In this document: one piece after another, positions 55,802 through 63,530 of the stretch
Numbering within the stretch: the first letter of the stretch is position 1
Layout of the letters: each line of letters starts with the position of its first letter
Source of the DNA: Asaia bogorensis
Lineage (GTDB): Bacteria > Pseudomonadota > Alphaproteobacteria > Reyranellales > Reyranellaceae
Assembly (NCBI GenBank): GCA_945905835.1
Contig: CAMDQJ010000003.1
Location: 1 to 64,000 of the forward strand
DNA length: 64,000 nucleotides
Reading direction: 5' to 3'
Made by a program: the position numbers and the translations under genes
Notes under the pieces: model-generated
Seen by the model: the letters and a program-made list of their open reading frames with translations, nothing else
The model's database searches: none
What the model was told of the DNA's origin: nothing

Positions 55802-57847
55802 CTATTTCTCCGGAACCTGCTGGGCGAGTTCGGCCAACCATACATCGGGACTGCCGTCGGAGGGCGCCCGCCAGTCGCCGCGCGGCGACAGCGAGCCGCC
55901 CGACGAAATCTTCGGGCCGTTGGGCAGTGCCGAGCGCTTGAACTGGTTGTGGAAGAAGCGGTTGAGGAACAGACCCAGCCACTTCTTGATCTCGGCCATC
56001 GTGAAAGCCCGCTTCGATCCGGCCGGAACGTTCGCCGGCCACGCGCCCTTGTCGACATCGTGCCAGGCATTCCAGGACAGGAAGGCGATCTTCGACGGTC
56101 GGTAACCGAGCCGCGTGAGGTAGTAGAGGTTGAAGTCCTGCAGGGCATACGGGCCGACCGACTGCTCGGTCGACTGGATCGCGCGTCCGTCGCCGGCCGG
56201 AATCAGTTCCGGCGAAATCTCGGTGTCGAGGATGTCGTGCAGGGTCGCTGCGGTGCCCTTGTCGACGTCGCCAGACGCCGCGACGAAACGGATGAGGTGC
56301 TGGATCAGCGTCTTGGAGACCGAGCCGTTGGGATTGTAGTGGGACATGTGATCGCCCACGCCGTAGGTGCACCATCCCAGTCCCAGCTCCGAAAGATCGC
56401 CGGTGCCTACCACCATGCCGCCGTGCTGGTTGGCGAGGCGGAACAGGTAGTCGGTGCGCAGACCCGCCTGCACGTTCTCGAAGGTGACGTCGTAGACCTT
56501 CTTGCCGCTGCCGAAGGGATGGCCGATATCCTTAAGCATCTGCGTGGCCGACGGCTTGATGTCGATTTCCGCCGGCGTCACGCCCAGCGACTTCATCAGC
56601 TTCCAGGCATTCTTGTAGGTTTTGTCCGAGGTGCCGAAGCCCGGCATGGTGAAAGCCAGCACCTGCTTGCGGTCGAGGCCCAGCAGGTCCATCGCCCGGC
56701 AGGTCACCAGCAGCGCATGGGTCGAATCGAGGCCCCCCGACACGCCGATGATGGCACGCTTGGTGCGGCTCGACTGCAGGCGCTGGGCCAGGCCCTGGAC
56801 CTGGATGTTGTAGGCCTCGTAGCAATTGTCGCGCAGCTTGGCCGGGTCGGACGGCACATAGGGAAAGCGCTCTATGGCGCGCTGCAGCGGCACGCTCTTC
56901 TTCGGTGCATCGAGCTGGAACGTCAGCGCGCGGAACCGCGTCACGCGCGCGCCCTCGTTGGCCGCGCAGTCGGCGAAGGCGTTGTAGCGCAGCCGCTCCT
57001 GGCGGATGCGACCGAGGTCGATGTCGGCCTGGATGACGACCGATTCCTTGGCGAAGCGTTCGGACTCCGCCAGCTGGTCGCCGCATTCGAAGATTGCGGC
57101 GTGCCCGTCCCAGGCGAGATCGGTCGTCGATTCGCCCGCACCCGATGCCGAATAGGCATAGGCCGCGACGGCACGCGACGACTGGCTGCCGCACAGCAGC
57201 CGGCGCGTCTCGGCCTTGCCGATGGTGATGTTGCTGGCCGACAGGTTCACCAGCACTTCGGCACCGGCGAGGGCCGCGTGGCTCGAGGGCGGCACCGGCA
57301 CCCAGATGTCCTCGCAGATCTCGACATGGAAGGTGAACGGCACGCTGCCGGTCGAGCGGAACAGAAAATCCGTGCCGAACGGCACCGTCTGGTCGGCGAG
57401 CCTGATCTCGGGCTCCAGCACGTTGGCGCCCGAAACGAAGTGACGCTTCTCGTAGAACTCGCGGTAATTCGGCAGGTAGGTCTTTGGCACCGCGCCCAGG
57501 ATGATACCGCGATGGATGACGATGGCGGTGTTGTAGAGCCGACCGCGCACGCGCAGCGGCGCGCCGACGATCAGGACGGGATTGAGCTTCTTCGAGGCCT
57601 GCACGACGCCAGCGATCGAGCGCTCGACTTCGTCGAGGAGTGCATCCTGCAGCAGCAGGTCCTCGATGGCGTAGGAAGAGAGCCCGAGCTCGGGAAAGAC
57701 CATGAGCGCCACCCCGGCTTTGTCGCCCTTGGCCGCCAGCCGCAGGGTTTCGGCCAGGTTGTACGCCGCGTCGGCAACGCGGGTTCGGGGCACACAGCAG
57801 GCGATGCGCGCGAAGTCGTGGGAATAGAGCGAGTAAAAATCAGGCAT
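55802..57847 (-). CDS. nadE: Glutamine-dependent NAD(+) synthase
   Basis: Nitrilase-like N domain (FPELGLSSYAIEDLL, EICEDIWVP) and synthetase domain (IIGVSGGLDSTHALLVTCRAMDLLGL). Confidence 0.96.
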   Translation of the reverse strand: MPDFYSLYSHDFARIACCVPRTRVADAAYNLAETLRLAAKGDKAGVALMVFPELGLSSYAIEDLLLQDALLDEVERSIAGVVQASKKLNPVLIVGAPLRVRGRLYNTAIVIHRGIILGAVPKTYLPNYREFYEKRHFVSGANVLEPEIRLADQTVPFGTDFLFRSTGSVPFTFHVEICEDIWVPVPPSSHAALAGAEVLVNLSASNITIGKAETRRLLCGSQSSRAVAAYAYSASGAGESTTDLAWDGHAAIFECGDQLAESERFAKESVVIQADIDLGRIRQERLRYNAFADCAANEGARVTRFRALTFQLDAPKKSVPLQRAIERFPYVPSDPAKLRDNCYEAYNIQVQGLAQRLQSSRTKRAIIGVSGGLDSTHALLVTCRAMDLLGLDRKQVLAFTMPGFGTSDKTYKNAWKLMKSLGVTPAEIDIKPSATQMLKDIGHPFGSGKKVYDVTFENVQAGLRTDYLFRLANQHGGMVVGTGDLSELGLGWCTYGVGDHMSHYNPNGSVSKTLIQHLIRFVAASGDVDKGTAATLHDILDTEISPELIPAGDGRAIQSTEQSVGPYALQDFNLYYLTRLGYRPSKIAFLSWNAWHDVDKGAWPANVPAGSKRAFTMAEIKKWLGLFLNRFFHNQFKRSALPNGPKISSGGSLSPRGDWRAPSDGSPDVWLAELAQQVPEK

Positions 57848-57855
57848 TGCGGGGG

Positions 57856-57910
57856 GGCGATGGTGGGCGCGACAGGGATTGAACCTGTGACCCCTGCCAT
57901 GTCAAGACAG
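57856..57910. repeat. 55-bp direct repeat, copy 1 (attachment-site-like partial tRNA-Val)
   Basis: ggcgatggtgggcgcgacagggattgaacctgtgacccctgccatgtcaagacag; identical to 62124-62178; includes the 3' 50 nt of tRNA-Val. Confidence 0.95.
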
Positions 57911-57914
57911 GTCG

Positions 57915-58631
57915 ATGAAAAAGCCCAGCTTCGACTATGATGGAGGAATCCCCGCGGGCTTCTACGACGAAATTTATCGCCGGAAGGCCGGTGTCCGCTA
58001 TTCGTGGCACGACCTGAAGTTTCGGGCGGTCGCGGCCCATCTGCCGCGGGCCAAGAGGCTTCTCGACATCGGATGCGGTCCCGGCACCTTCATCGGGAAC
58101 TACCTGGACGGCACCGAAGCACTGGGAATCGACGCGAGCGCACCGCAGATCGAATACGCGAATCGGCACTACTCAACGGGCTTTCATCGCTTTTCGACCC
58201 AGCCGGTGGCCGCTCTCGCGGACGCCCGCGAACGCTTCGACGCCATAACAATGATTGAGCTGCTGGAGCATCTGGCCGCGGATGAAGCCGTTCGACTACT
58301 GACGCAGGCGAGGGAGCTCCTCGCCCCGGACGGCATCCTGATCGTAACAACACCCAACTACGGGTCCCTTTGGCCGGTTATCGAGTGGGGACTCAATCGT
58401 TTGTCTCAGGTGAACTACGAGCAGCAGCATATAAATCCGTATCGCCGCAAATACCTCACCCGCCACTTGGCCGCCGCCGGCTATCGCAGCGCGACCGTCA
58501 AGACAATCGTCGGCTTCGCGCCGTTTGCGGCTGTGTTCGGCATGAAGCCAGCGCAATACCTGGATGCCTTCGAGACACGGCTGAGACATTTCGGCGTTGG
58601 CAATCTCCTGCTGGCCCTGGCCAAGCCCTGA
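57915..58631 (+). CDS. Class I SAM-dependent methyltransferase
   Basis: RLLDIGCGPGTFIGNYL, AITMIELLEHLAADEAVRLLTQARELLAPDGILIVTTPNYGS. Confidence 0.92.
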   Translation: MKKPSFDYDGGIPAGFYDEIYRRKAGVRYSWHDLKFRAVAAHLPRAKRLLDIGCGPGTFIGNYLDGTEALGIDASAPQIEYANRHYSTGFHRFSTQPVAALADARERFDAITMIELLEHLAADEAVRLLTQARELLAPDGILIVTTPNYGSLWPVIEWGLNRLSQVNYEQQHINPYRRKYLTRHLAAAGYRSATVKTIVGFAPFAAVFGMKPAQYLDAFETRLRHFGVGNLLLALAKP

Positions 58632-58655
58632 CGCCAGACGAAATTGAGTTAAGGT

Positions 58656-59762
58656 GTGCATATGCGCCCGATTTCGATCGTCGTTCCGACCTACAACGAA
58701 GCGACCAACATACCCATGATCTACAGTGGGCTTGCCCAGGCTCTTCAGCATACGCCCTGGGAGTTGATCATCGTCGACGACGACTCCCCAGATGGAACGG
58801 CAGATGCTGTACGCGGTCTAGCGCAGCAGCACTCCAACATCCGATGCATACAGCGTCTCCAGGAAAGAGGTCTCTGTTCGGCCGTTCAATGGGGCGTTCA
58901 GGCCGCCCACGGCGACATCGTCGTCGTCATGGATGGGGATCTCCAGCACGATCCTGACCTGATCCCGGCCATGGTCGAGGAACTGGGCAAGGGCTCCGAT
59001 ATCGCGTCTGGATCACGGTTCTTGTCCACGGCGCACACGAAAGGCCTGTCATCTCCTCTCCGCAGCAACCTTTCCGCCTACGGCAATAAATTCATCAATT
59101 TCTGCCTCGGCACCAAGCTAACCGACCCCTTGACCGGCTTCTTCGCTACGTCGCGCACCTTGTTCCTACGGTCGATTCCACGAATGCAGGCCGACGGATT
59201 CAAGGTGTTCTTCGATCTGGTCTATCATAACAAAAATGCAACGGTGAAAGAGCTGGCCTTCGATTTTCGAGTTCGCCAGCATGGCGAGTCCAAGCTCCAA
59301 CTCTATGTGCTCTGGCTGCTCCTGTGTGACGTGATCTCGAAACTATCCGGCGGCTTGGCGCCTCCCCGCTTGATCAGCTTCGTTGGTGTCGGATTGATCG
59401 GCTCGATCGTTCACTTTTCTTTTTTGTACGCGAGCCTCGCATCGGGAACGGTATTCTGGATTGCCCAGACGATCGCCACCGTCACGGCGATGGCTTTCAA
59501 CTTCACCATAAACAATGTGTTGACGTATTCCGCGGATCGTCTCAGGAAGGATGAGTTTTACAAGGGCTTGCTGCTGTACAGCGTCATCGCATCATTTGGA
59601 ATCGTCGCGAATGTCAGTACCGCGCAACTTACCTACGATCACTTCAAAGGACATACGTTCGTAGCAGCCTCAATGGGTATCGTCATCGACGTGATCTGGA
59701 GGTTCGTTGTGTCGAACCGCCTGATCTGGGGACGATCGTCGATACTCAGGAGGAAAAAGTGA
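58656..59762 (+). CDS. Glycosyltransferase family 2 (dolichyl-P-mannose synthase-like) fused to C-terminal GtrA-like flippase domain
   Basis: ISIVVPTYNEATNIPMI, IIVDDDSPDGTADAV, VVMDGDLQHDPDLIP; C-terminal 4-TM LISFVGVGLIGSIVHFSFLYASL..AMAFNFTINNVLTYS. Confidence 0.93.
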   Translation: MHMRPISIVVPTYNEATNIPMIYSGLAQALQHTPWELIIVDDDSPDGTADAVRGLAQQHSNIRCIQRLQERGLCSAVQWGVQAAHGDIVVVMDGDLQHDPDLIPAMVEELGKGSDIASGSRFLSTAHTKGLSSPLRSNLSAYGNKFINFCLGTKLTDPLTGFFATSRTLFLRSIPRMQADGFKVFFDLVYHNKNATVKELAFDFRVRQHGESKLQLYVLWLLLCDVISKLSGGLAPPRLISFVGVGLIGSIVHFSFLYASLASGTVFWIAQTIATVTAMAFNFTINNVLTYSADRLRKDEFYKGLLLYSVIASFGIVANVSTAQLTYDHFKGHTFVAASMGIVIDVIWRFVVSNRLIWGRSSILRRKK

Positions 59763-59777
59763 CGCTCATTTCGGAGG

Positions 59778-62093
59778 TTGAGCGTGCGCATGACCGTTAA
59801 GCAAGCGCTGCTTCAGCCTGCCTACAATCTCTCACTCAGCGGCCTGATTTCTCTGACGGCAGCTTTCCTTCTGGTACTGGGCGGGTTTCTCGTCCCGTCC
59901 CGGGCGCTGTTCCTGATCGCGGCGACCCTGACGATCTTGTGTGCACTCTTCATCATTTGCGCGGGCTCGAGGGCCGAGCGTCAAAACATCGACGTCCGAA
60001 TTTTTCATGCCCTGCGCCACACAGGCTTTGCCCTCCGGACAGGCAGTGCATCGACGCCAAGCACGCTGGCGGTTCTTCTGTATTCCGCGGGCTTCATCGG
60101 CTGCATCGGCGCCTATAGCTACCTTGCGTTGACAAGTTTCGGCGCGCTATCGGACAGCGATCAGAATCTCGCTTGGGGACTGGTAGACAAGCGGCCACTT
60201 ATTTTCGGCTATGTGCTCGGCGCAATCTTCATTTCATTTCATTGGCTGATGGTCAGGGCCTTCTTCAATACGCAGAAATTCGATCGCTACCCACGGCACG
60301 CCGGATGGGAAACAACGGGCTTTCGGCCAAGCATCCATGCATTGAACGCAAGCCGGCTGCTCGGCGGCGTGGTGATCGCGTTTCTGGCCTATTGGTGGAT
60401 CTGTCTCCCCGCCCTGCGCGACGTGGATCCTGGCGTCGGCAGCACGTTCGCTCCTTTTTACAGTTACTACTCCCATATTCACGTTCACCTCGGCGCGCTG
60501 GAACAAATTCGCCTTGGAGCGATCCCTGCTCTGGAAGCGCAAACCCAGTACGGTCTGGGCAACCAGGTTCTTATGTACTTCCTGACCCAATGGCTCGGCT
60601 TCAGCAGCCATGGATTCTATGCCGCTAATATTCTCCTCAATGCGATTTGCACCGTTGGGTTCTTCGTTGTCCTCCAGAGATTTCTGGGGTTCGCCTGGGC
60701 ACTCGCCGGTTTGCTTGGATGGATGCTCTGGCCAAGCCCATATCAGGCCATCGAGATGACCGGCTGGGCGTTCTTCACCCGATGGCTCGCCATACCGATC
60801 TTGTCGCTGTGGCTTGCGCACTTGCTGCTAAATTCCGATTCAAGAAAACGGATGACGCTCGCACCGCTTCTCTCCGGAGCCCTCTGGGGAATCGGCGGAT
60901 TCCTCAGCCAGGAAAACCTCTCAGGCGGGGGGCTGGTCTTCGCGCTTTGCATCGCGCTCTTTGGTCCGACGTCCGGCCTGCATTGGCGCGCCATCGCCAG
61001 ATTTTCCGCGCTATTCGTGGCGGGCGGCCTAAGTACGTTCTTGGTGCTGGTGGCCAACTTTGTCGGAATTCCCCGGTTGCTCGAATTTTTTCGAATGGCG
61101 AACGTGAAATCCAATCTTGTCATAGCCGGTGTTTCCAATTCCTGGTGGTCGGACAAGTTGGAGTTGTCCGTGGGACTAGGCGTTGCTGATGGCAGGCCTC
61201 ACGCATCGCTGGCCTCGATCGGTGAGTGGGCGTCGGCTATCCAAACGTATGGCTGTGCCTTCCTGCTGATCGTCTCGATCGGGCTCCTGGCGGCGTTCTT
61301 CAGTCGCCGCGCATCGCCGATGACGGCTCGAGAGAGGCAGTTCATCCGCAAATTCGGTGGCGTTGCGGTCGGCGCTTTTGTGCTCCATCTATTCACGCTG
61401 ATGAGGTCGGACTTTACCCACCTCGCTGGTCCGTCATTTCTCCTGGCACTCTTTCTGGCGATGTTGCCGATGTTCGTATGGCGCTTTGTTCCGACGGGGT
61501 TCGCGCGCAACTCCGTTTTGGCTGTTTCCGTCATGGCCATCCTTGCGGCAGCCCTTGCCGGCGGATCCGATATCGGCCGCAAGATCGCTGGCATCGACGC
61601 CCTGGGCCGAGATTCGAGAACTGCGTTTGGAATCTATGCCGAGCTTCTGAAGTTCAAGGATCAGTCTTCCGATCTTGCCTCTCGTTATTCGCCGATACCG
61701 AGGTTTCTGCCGCCGTTCCGAAATCATCCGGACTATGCCGACACGCAGGAGCTGTTCGGATTACTGCACGACCGGTTGCGGGGAAGGAGATTGGAACTGG
61801 GCTTCCACAAGCTCAACGGGCTCATTCCACATGCCGAGTTGTTCTATTTCTTCGGCAAATTCCGATCCATATCGGGCATCACGTCCTCGACAGTCAGCAT
61901 ATGGCTGAGGTCCGAGGAAGACGCGTGGGTCGACCGCGTCGTTGGCTCCGAAACGGCTTGTGTCTTCTTCGAACCAGTTCCCGCCGGCAGACTATTCGAG
62001 GCGTGGCAGAAATCGGTTCAGCCCCTGAGTTCGGTCGTCACCGAGCCAATAGTGGGTCGCAAGAACTACGGCGTATTGTCCTGCAGGACCTAG
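59778..62093 (+). CDS. Large polytopic membrane protein, possible GT-C-type glycosyltransferase (GtrC-like)
   Basis: 771 aa, about a dozen hydrophobic segments and a C-terminal soluble tail; directly downstream of GT2-GtrA; start codon uncertain (TTG 59778 or ATG 59790). Confidence 0.65.
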   Translation: MSVRMTVKQALLQPAYNLSLSGLISLTAAFLLVLGGFLVPSRALFLIAATLTILCALFIICAGSRAERQNIDVRIFHALRHTGFALRTGSASTPSTLAVLLYSAGFIGCIGAYSYLALTSFGALSDSDQNLAWGLVDKRPLIFGYVLGAIFISFHWLMVRAFFNTQKFDRYPRHAGWETTGFRPSIHALNASRLLGGVVIAFLAYWWICLPALRDVDPGVGSTFAPFYSYYSHIHVHLGALEQIRLGAIPALEAQTQYGLGNQVLMYFLTQWLGFSSHGFYAANILLNAICTVGFFVVLQRFLGFAWALAGLLGWMLWPSPYQAIEMTGWAFFTRWLAIPILSLWLAHLLLNSDSRKRMTLAPLLSGALWGIGGFLSQENLSGGGLVFALCIALFGPTSGLHWRAIARFSALFVAGGLSTFLVLVANFVGIPRLLEFFRMANVKSNLVIAGVSNSWWSDKLELSVGLGVADGRPHASLASIGEWASAIQTYGCAFLLIVSIGLLAAFFSRRASPMTARERQFIRKFGGVAVGAFVLHLFTLMRSDFTHLAGPSFLLALFLAMLPMFVWRFVPTGFARNSVLAVSVMAILAAALAGGSDIGRKIAGIDALGRDSRTAFGIYAELLKFKDQSSDLASRYSPIPRFLPPFRNHPDYADTQELFGLLHDRLRGRRLELGFHKLNGLIPHAELFYFFGKFRSISGITSSTVSIWLRSEEDAWVDRVVGSETACVFFEPVPAGRLFEAWQKSVQPLSSVVTEPIVGRKNYGVLSCRT

Positions 62094-62123
62094 ACCGCAC
62101 GACGTCAGCCTGGGCTGGTCGGA

Positions 62124-62178
62124 GGCGATGGTGGGCGCGACAGGGATTGAACCTGTGACCCCTGCCATGTCAAGACAG
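62124..62178. repeat. 55-bp direct repeat, copy 2 (within intact tRNA-Val)
   Basis: Identical to 57856-57910. Confidence 0.95.
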
Positions 62179-62203
62179 TGCTCTGCCGCTGAGCTACGCG
62201 CCC
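62129..62203 (-). tRNA. tRNA-Val (anticodon GAC), CCA encoded
   Basis: gggcgcgtagctcagcggcagagcactgtcttGACatggcaggggtcacaggttcaatccctgtcgcgcccACCA; 7-bp acceptor stem gggcgcg/cgcgccc, T-loop ggttcaatcc. Confidence 0.96.
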
Positions 62204-62284: not shown

Positions 62285-63211
62285 GTGCCCGGCCCGCGCT
62301 ATGAGGTTTGCATGCTGCTTATGCCGGGCGTCCCCGATCACGAGTCTATCGACCTGCGCCGCCCGGCGCACCAGACCACGCCGCTGGTCGTCGCGTCGCC
62401 GCATAGCGGCTCCCACTACTCCACCGAATTCCTCGCCGCGACGGCCGTGCCGCTGGCGGTGCTGAAGCGCGCCGAAGACGCCTTCATCGACGAGCTGTTC
62501 GCCGCTGCGCCCACGCTCGGTGCGCCCCTGCTGGCGGCGCGCTTTCCGCGCTCCTACGTCGATGCCAACCGCGAGTCCTACGAACTCGACCCCGCCATGT
62601 TCGAAGGCCCGTTGCCGCGGGCGCTCAACCACCGCACGTCGCGGGTGGCGGCAGGCCTCGGCATGATCCCGCGGGTCGCGGCGAGCGGCGAAGCGATCTA
62701 TCGCGGCCGCGTGCCCGCCGACGAGATCGAGCGCCGCCTGGAGAGTTGCTGGCGTCCCTATCACGGCGCGCTGTCAATGCTGATCGAGCAGACCCATCGC
62801 GTATTCGGCGGCAGCCTGCTGATCGACGCCCATTCCATGCCGTCGTCGGCCTCCGGCATCGGCCCGCGCGAGCGCGAGGCGCGGGTCGACGCGGTGCTGG
62901 GCGACAATCACGGCGAGGCCTGCGCGCCGGAGCTGGTCGCCTCGATCGAGCACTGGCTGCGCGACCGCGGCCTGCGCGTGCAGCGCAATCAGCCTTACGC
63001 CGGCGGATACACGACCCAACGCTACGGACAGCCCGCCACCGGCCGGCATGTCCTGCAGATCGAGATAAACCGCGCCCTCTACATGGATGAGGCGCGGCAC
63101 GAGAAGCTCGCGACCTGGGGGGTCACCGAGCGGCTCATTTCCGGCCTGCTGGAGCACGTTTCGCAGGCCGCGCTGGAAATCCTGCTGCCCCGTTCGTTGG
63201 CAGCTGAATAG
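62285..63211 (+). CDS. N-formylglutamate amidohydrolase (copy 2)
   Basis: PLVVASPHSGSHYSTEFLAA, RFPRSYVDANRESYELDPAMFEG, LLIDAHSMPS, NQPYAGGYTTQRYG, LQIEINRALYMDE. Confidence 0.93.
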   Translation: MPGPRYEVCMLLMPGVPDHESIDLRRPAHQTTPLVVASPHSGSHYSTEFLAATAVPLAVLKRAEDAFIDELFAAAPTLGAPLLAARFPRSYVDANRESYELDPAMFEGPLPRALNHRTSRVAAGLGMIPRVAASGEAIYRGRVPADEIERRLESCWRPYHGALSMLIEQTHRVFGGSLLIDAHSMPSSASGIGPREREARVDAVLGDNHGEACAPELVASIEHWLRDRGLRVQRNQPYAGGYTTQRYGQPATGRHVLQIEINRALYMDEARHEKLATWGVTERLISGLLEHVSQAALEILLPRSLAAE

Positions 63212-63241
63212 GCCTGCCAGGGCGCCAAAAGGCCAAAAAAA

Positions 63242-63261
63242 GGGCCGTGCTAGCACGGCCC
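63242..63261. terminator. Perfect 20-bp palindrome flanked by an A7 tract (terminator-like for minus-strand transcription)
   Basis: aaaaaaa-gggccgtgctagcacggccc-gagttta. Confidence 0.5.
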
Positions 63262-63530
63262 GAGTTTAGGGAGGAAACGCCCAAGACGGGCATACAGCAA
63301 CAAGTTGCTGCTCCACAAAAATGGTGCAAGTGCGAAGAGAATTCAAGAGACAAAAAGACTTTTCTTTTCACAGGCTTAACCGGCGTCTTGTTCGAATAAT
63401 GGTGTGGCCTTTTTGCAACGCACAAGATTCACGCGAAGCAGGTTTGCGGTGACTGCAAGGCTCATGCGGCTCCATCGCACCGGCATTTTGTAGACTGATC
63501 AATGGCTTAGCTTTCCTGGGGGAGGTCCTC

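Follow-up and report, generated by a model that had tools for sequence, protein, structure and literature searches.

An integrase-less islet between tRNA-Val(GAC) repeats beside nadE in Reyranella, a probable residue of a tyrosine-integrase element

Genomic islands inserted in tRNA genes are recognized by the Islander approach from an intact tRNA followed by a correctly placed 3' fragment in the same orientation, with a length of 2-200 kb and an integrase inside the island, and candidates devoid of integrase are rejected; about half of its set uses attachment sites centred on the anticodon (PMC4383910). Cis-mobilizable elements (CIMEs) are defined by the conservation of attL and attR, the loss of integration and transfer genes and the descent from an ICE or an IME, and their remnants may lie in tandem at one site (PMC5704250). 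A CIME is further expected to move in cis with an accreted element. Similarly, the ssrA islands of Dehalococcoides, which involve a serine recombinase and the tmRNA, consist of cargo bounded by repeats of the 3' end of the RNA gene, some without integration module, and form tandem arrays (PMC3146451). In the serotype-converting phages of Shigella integrated at tRNA-thrW, gtrABC cassettes associate GtrB and GtrA functions with a membrane transferase in an operon that abuts attP, with int on the other side of attP (PMC3636060). Phage satellites such as the PICIs are recognized by an integrase, a regulator and a primase-replication module.

The locus studied here lies in a 64-kb window (the whole stretch of DNA analyzed) and, judging by its sequence, would be a decayed, integrase-less tRNA island with a CIME-like anatomy (Table 1). 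As in CIMEs, att-like repeats are present at both ends, integration and transfer genes are absent, presumably through loss, and remnants occur in tandem at the same site in the genus; unlike CIMEs, an ICE or IME origin is only putative, since the islet carries no conjugation gene and the elements of relatives at this site are satellite- or phage-like. The organization of the Dehalococcoides islands is also alike, but the Reyranella site is a tRNA-Val with an attachment site in the anticodon loop and is used by tyrosine integrases. The islet exhibits the intact tRNA and the downstream 3' fragment of Islander islands over 4.27 kb, but no integrase. Like the Shigella cassettes, the operon abuts an att site and contains GtrB-like GT2 and GtrA-like functions; compared to them, these two functions are fused in one protein, a methyltransferase is added, the third gene encodes a 771-aa GT-C-like membrane protein of a Reyranella family and the phage body is missing. 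The set of integrase, regulator and primase-replication module typical of satellites is absent from the islet, and is found in part in the element of one relative only (G086, see below). The islet is thus a clear but fairly ordinary example, as integrase-less decayed islands bounded by att repeats have already been described in the form of CIMEs and at ssrA of Dehalococcoides.

Table 1. Features of the tRNA-Val(GAC)-nadE locus, in positions of the window
Feature	Positions	Strand	Basis
nadE (NAD synthetase), left flank, 8 bp from orphan copy	55802..57847	-	
Orphan 3' part of tRNA-Val(GAC), displaced att copy beside nadE	57856..57910	-	repeat search, junction comparison
Islet between repeats, 4,213 bp, GC 57.5%	57911..62123	.	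repeat search, composition
SAM-dependent methyltransferase	57915..58631	+	PF13489 (4.5e-21)
GT2-GtrA fusion, GtrB-GtrA-like polyprenyl-phosphate hexose synthase/flippase	58656..59762	+	PF00535, PF04138
771-aa membrane protein, probable GT-C glycosyltransferase	59778..62093	+	family almost confined to Reyranella; structure matches
Second 55-bp repeat copy, inside intact tRNA	62124..62178	-	repeat search
Intact tRNA-Val(GAC)	62129..62203	-	ARAGORN, Rfam
N-formylglutamate amidohydrolase (FGase), right flank	62285..63211	+	

A repeat search recovered a direct repeat at 57853-57910 and 62121-62178 with 57 of 58 positions identical, of which the 55 bp claimed by the original prediction are perfect; the runner-up repeat families of the region cover ~28-36 nt and match at 68-72% only. 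This 55-mer is found twice in the whole 4.07-Mb assembly, at the two ends of the islet. An assembly artefact through a word of k = 55 is unlikely because the contig ends of the assembly overlap by 148-149 bp, so that a repeat of 55 bp is much shorter than the word apparently used for the graph, and both junctions were directly assembled. ARAGORN and Rfam agree on a single tRNA-Val(GAC), and the placement of the right copy inside this intact gene was borne out: the repeat extends from nt 26 through the CCA and 5 bp beyond, covering anticodon stem, loop, variable region, T arm and acceptor strand. The left copy is an orphan 3' fragment in the correct orientation downstream of the intact tRNA. 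It had been described as a 3' half running from the anticodon loop through the CCA. Nt 26, where the repeat starts, is also where the anticodon stem begins, in agreement with an attachment site centred on the anticodon (PMC4383910). At nt 19 of the islet tRNA-Val (position 62185), the D-loop harbors a C in place of the T of the relatives whose tRNA was compared. Rfam also reported a suhB/mmgR small RNA (RF00519) at 63227-63298 on the minus strand.

Three co-directional genes only are present between the repeats, the start codon of the methyltransferase being 4 bp past the left repeat and the stop codon of the 771-aa gene 30 bp ahead of the right one. In agreement with the initial reading of the locus, domain and PHROG searches revealed neither a recombinase nor a relaxase nor a gene for a phage structural protein between the repeats, with the nuance that the phage family nearest to the GT2-GtrA protein is PHROG 841, a "moron" family of GtrB-like O-antigen conversion; moreover, no PF00589 match exists anywhere on the contig. 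A scan for sigma-70-type promoters across the islet found nothing. Domain analyses of the GT2-GtrA protein used the in-frame start at 58662, and its closest match in the PDB is a dolichol-phosphate mannose synthase (5mlz). The 771-aa protein has no sequence match in Pfam, NCBIfam or the PDB; the top PDB structure matches of its AlphaFold model (mean pLDDT 72) are GT-C enzymes, ArnT first (E 1.1e-4, the only one under 0.001), followed at weaker E-values by the oligosaccharyltransferase catalytic subunit, ALG9, ALG3 and AftB, all with low TM-scores. On this modelled fold, it is probably a GT-C glycosyltransferase. The operon would then likely synthesize a polyprenyl-phosphate-sugar and flip it before a GT-C transfer: a sugar is probably loaded on polyprenyl phosphate, flipped and passed to a surface glycan or protein, and methylation would be a further step. 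The composition of the islet is foreign, as both checks of GC and codon bias that had been proposed indicate, with a GC content of 0.575 compared to 0.657 +/- 0.012 in equal-sized stretches of the window and a GC3 of 0.69-0.74 (~0.70) compared to 0.87-0.88 in three flanking genes.

The 771-aa protein is encoded in 27 other Reyranella genomes, mostly within two conserved chromosomal settings, and is missing from the nearest relatives, except for a diverged copy at another locus in G023. Cultured species that carry the operon include R. soli and R. aquatilis. No match was obtained in the phage and plasmid records searched. The operon loci retrieved in 19 other genomes are devoid of the repeat, and among the operon loci compared, the islet copy alone is flanked by a direct word >30 bp. 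A repeat-bounded, integrase-less unit with this operon, the search for which had been suggested at the outset, was not found at these loci; a different one, a 2.0-kb islet, is shared by G022 and G036. A low-GC copy of the three-gene operon in G081 (G081:C704) starts 190 bp after tRNA-Ser(CGA); it was considered as a tRNA-bounded copy and rejected, no second tRNA-Ser repeat being found on its far side. The trees of the GT2 and methyltransferase genes do not separate G000, G081, G023 and G088, nor do they point to a source of the islet copy.

The junction between tRNA-Val(GAC) and nadE could be read in 63 of 65 Reyranella genomes. The empty junction that was to be sought in relatives is present in 45 of the 63, with a complete tRNA 12-100 bp from nadE, no insert and the gene order FGase-tRNA-nadE. 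All nine sister species with a readable tRNA (nadE identity of ~90% or more) display such an empty site; in the tenth, G026, the contig breaks at the repeat and the tRNA is not readable. Ten further genomes have 0.3-3.7 kb separating tRNA and nadE, without clear orphan. Other genomes harbor elements at this position. G086 (G086:C8:136000-155900) carries a 12.1-kb satellite-like element flanked by two tRNA-Val(GAC) copies and encoding an intact 335-aa PF00589 integrase, a VapE/DUF5906 protein, a CBASS-like cyclase and a patatin phospholipase, and the 7.0-kb insert between the two tRNA copies of G015 contains a pseudogene homologous to this integrase. In G022, whose 3'-half orphan repeats measure 51-52 bp, the 11.2-kb insert carries an integrase that adjoins the tRNA, as well as an ERF gene and a 51-bp 3'-half orphan, and is followed by the above-mentioned 2.0-kb islet, which encodes a TauE-family protein and no integrase, and then by a second orphan; the G036 counterpart at the same tRNA shares 87% identity (L032:3151-5176 and L033:10211-12295). 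G011 presents an orphan with a 0.3-kb integrase-less insert, and in G088 orphan copies lie on two contigs, one of which holds two. In Reyranella, the tRNA-Val(GAC)-nadE junction has served for integration repeatedly.

Comparison of the tRNA-Val(GAC) loci of 61 Reyranella genomes revealed two main forms of the 3' half, T1 and T2, which differ at three linked positions. At least nine switches between the two forms are seen on the nadE tree, a count that is indicative, as the tree derives from one gene that adjoins the site. The displaced fragment resembles T1 in G011, G036 and the inner copy of G022, whereas the complete tRNA is T2, a mismatch that indicates the replacement of the 3' half by the element, and the switches between T1 and T2 are probably footprints of past integrations. 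Gene conversion from other tRNA-Val genes was considered as the source of the haplotypes and rejected, as the genes sampled (the CAC genes of eight genomes, an odd CAC gene of G026 and one TAC gene) do not have the T2 motif. This odd tRNA-Val(CAC) of G026 (G026:C119, L043:537-611) has the T1 body of a tRNA-Val(GAC), T arm included, and differs from the CAC genes of relatives; conversion, secondary integration or a foreign contig are possible.

Altogether, the view of the repeat as a tyrosine-recombinase scar at a tRNA 3' end is upheld by the empty sites, the integrase-bearing elements of G086 and G022 and the swapped haplotypes. Of the two findings that would have contradicted this view, a lack of empty-site alleles in relatives and an ancestral tandem duplication of the tRNA, neither was obtained. 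The islet is probably the residue of a tyrosine-integrase element, either a prophage or a phage satellite, of which only the gtr-like operon next to the att site is left. According to this scenario, a tyrosine integrase would have inserted the element into tRNA-Val(GAC) through strand exchange in the anticodon loop, joining the 5' half of the host tRNA to the 3' half brought by the element, now the right copy, and pushing the 3' half of the host beside nadE, now the left copy. A later deletion would have taken the body of the element and the end presumed to carry the integrase, and the survivor would be the operon abutting the other attachment site, with its methyltransferase, GtrB-GtrA fusion and putative GT-C transferase. 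Since gtr and int flank attP in the Shigella phages, a prophage of this kind has gtr and int at opposite ends; a deletion from the tRNA-side end would thus spare the operon beside the nadE-side copy, together with a short remnant by the tRNA. The integrase of G022 adjoins the tRNA-side copy, i.e., the end lost in the proposed deletion. By analogy, the presence of a GtrB-like gene in an att-adjacent operon, the position of gtrABC in the serotype-converting phages (PMC3636060), may also support this origin. The foreign composition of the islet, the smaller integrase-less remnants at the site (2.0 kb in G022 and G036, 0.3 kb in G011) and the leading rank of GT-C folds among the structure matches speak for it as well.

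Several observations argue against it. No integrase fragment is found in the islet, the insert corresponds almost exactly to the operon with margins of 4 and 30 bp, so that the deletion would have had to stop near the tRNA, and the operon is chromosomal elsewhere in the genus, without phage or plasmid relatives of the 771-aa protein among the records searched. Both repeat copies of the islet are T1, so that no swap is visible there. Finally, in the gap between nadE and the tRNA fragment (57848-57855), the 54-70 bp leader of the sister species, which contains CTGGAG, is missing; the left junction is hence not cleanly derived from attB, and some local change took place with or after the insertion.

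The original prediction had offered two origins, mobilization in trans and the residue of a larger element, of which the latter is favoured. A minimal non-autonomous cassette, made of the operon and one tRNA-derived attP and moved in trans by the integrases of co-resident elements, would account for an insert trimmed almost to the operon between two perfect att copies; integrases for the tRNA-Val(GAC) site circulate in the genus (G086, G022), and a second low-GC copy of the operon lies near tRNA-Ser(CGA) in G081. However, a cassette of this sort should come with a matching integrase or with other copies between repeats, and neither was found. Six PF00589 proteins are encoded by the genome itself, none of them close to the integrases of G086 and G022 (33-34% identity at most, over partial alignments), leading to the rejection of a helper integrase in this genome. 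The 19 other operon loci retrieved lack the repeat, and no tRNA-Ser repeat was found on the far side of the G081 copy. We therefore regard mobilization in trans as unlikely. It is quite unlikely that a bare surface-glycan operon without movement gene travels at tRNA-Val(GAC) with integrases borrowed from resident satellites and that glycan types are thereby shuffled among Reyranella strains.

An already decayed islet might also have been gained from an unsampled Reyranella by homologous recombination over FGase-tRNA-nadE. The nadE leader unlike that of the sister species and the restricted distribution of the 771-aa protein among the nearest relatives are in line with such an import, but nadE of the islet strain groups with its expected sister species at full support, and we consider this route rather improbable. 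A partial tandem duplication of the tRNA in an ancestor, followed by the unrelated insertion of the operon between the copies, could draw on the orphan tRNA pieces seen in other Reyranella too, but was rejected as highly improbable. In close relatives, the tRNA is complete and single and the junction is empty; moreover, the end of the repeat coincides exactly with the anticodon stem, integrases are present in other inserts at the site and displaced fragments differ from the tRNA in haplotype.

The descent of the islet from an integrase element, if correct, indicates that a gtr-like operon can be the sole survivor at the tRNA-Val(GAC)-nadE site. At this site of Reyranella, intact elements, remnants and empty sites are all available for comparison, and swaps of the tRNA 3'-half haplotype may record past integrations even after the element has been lost.
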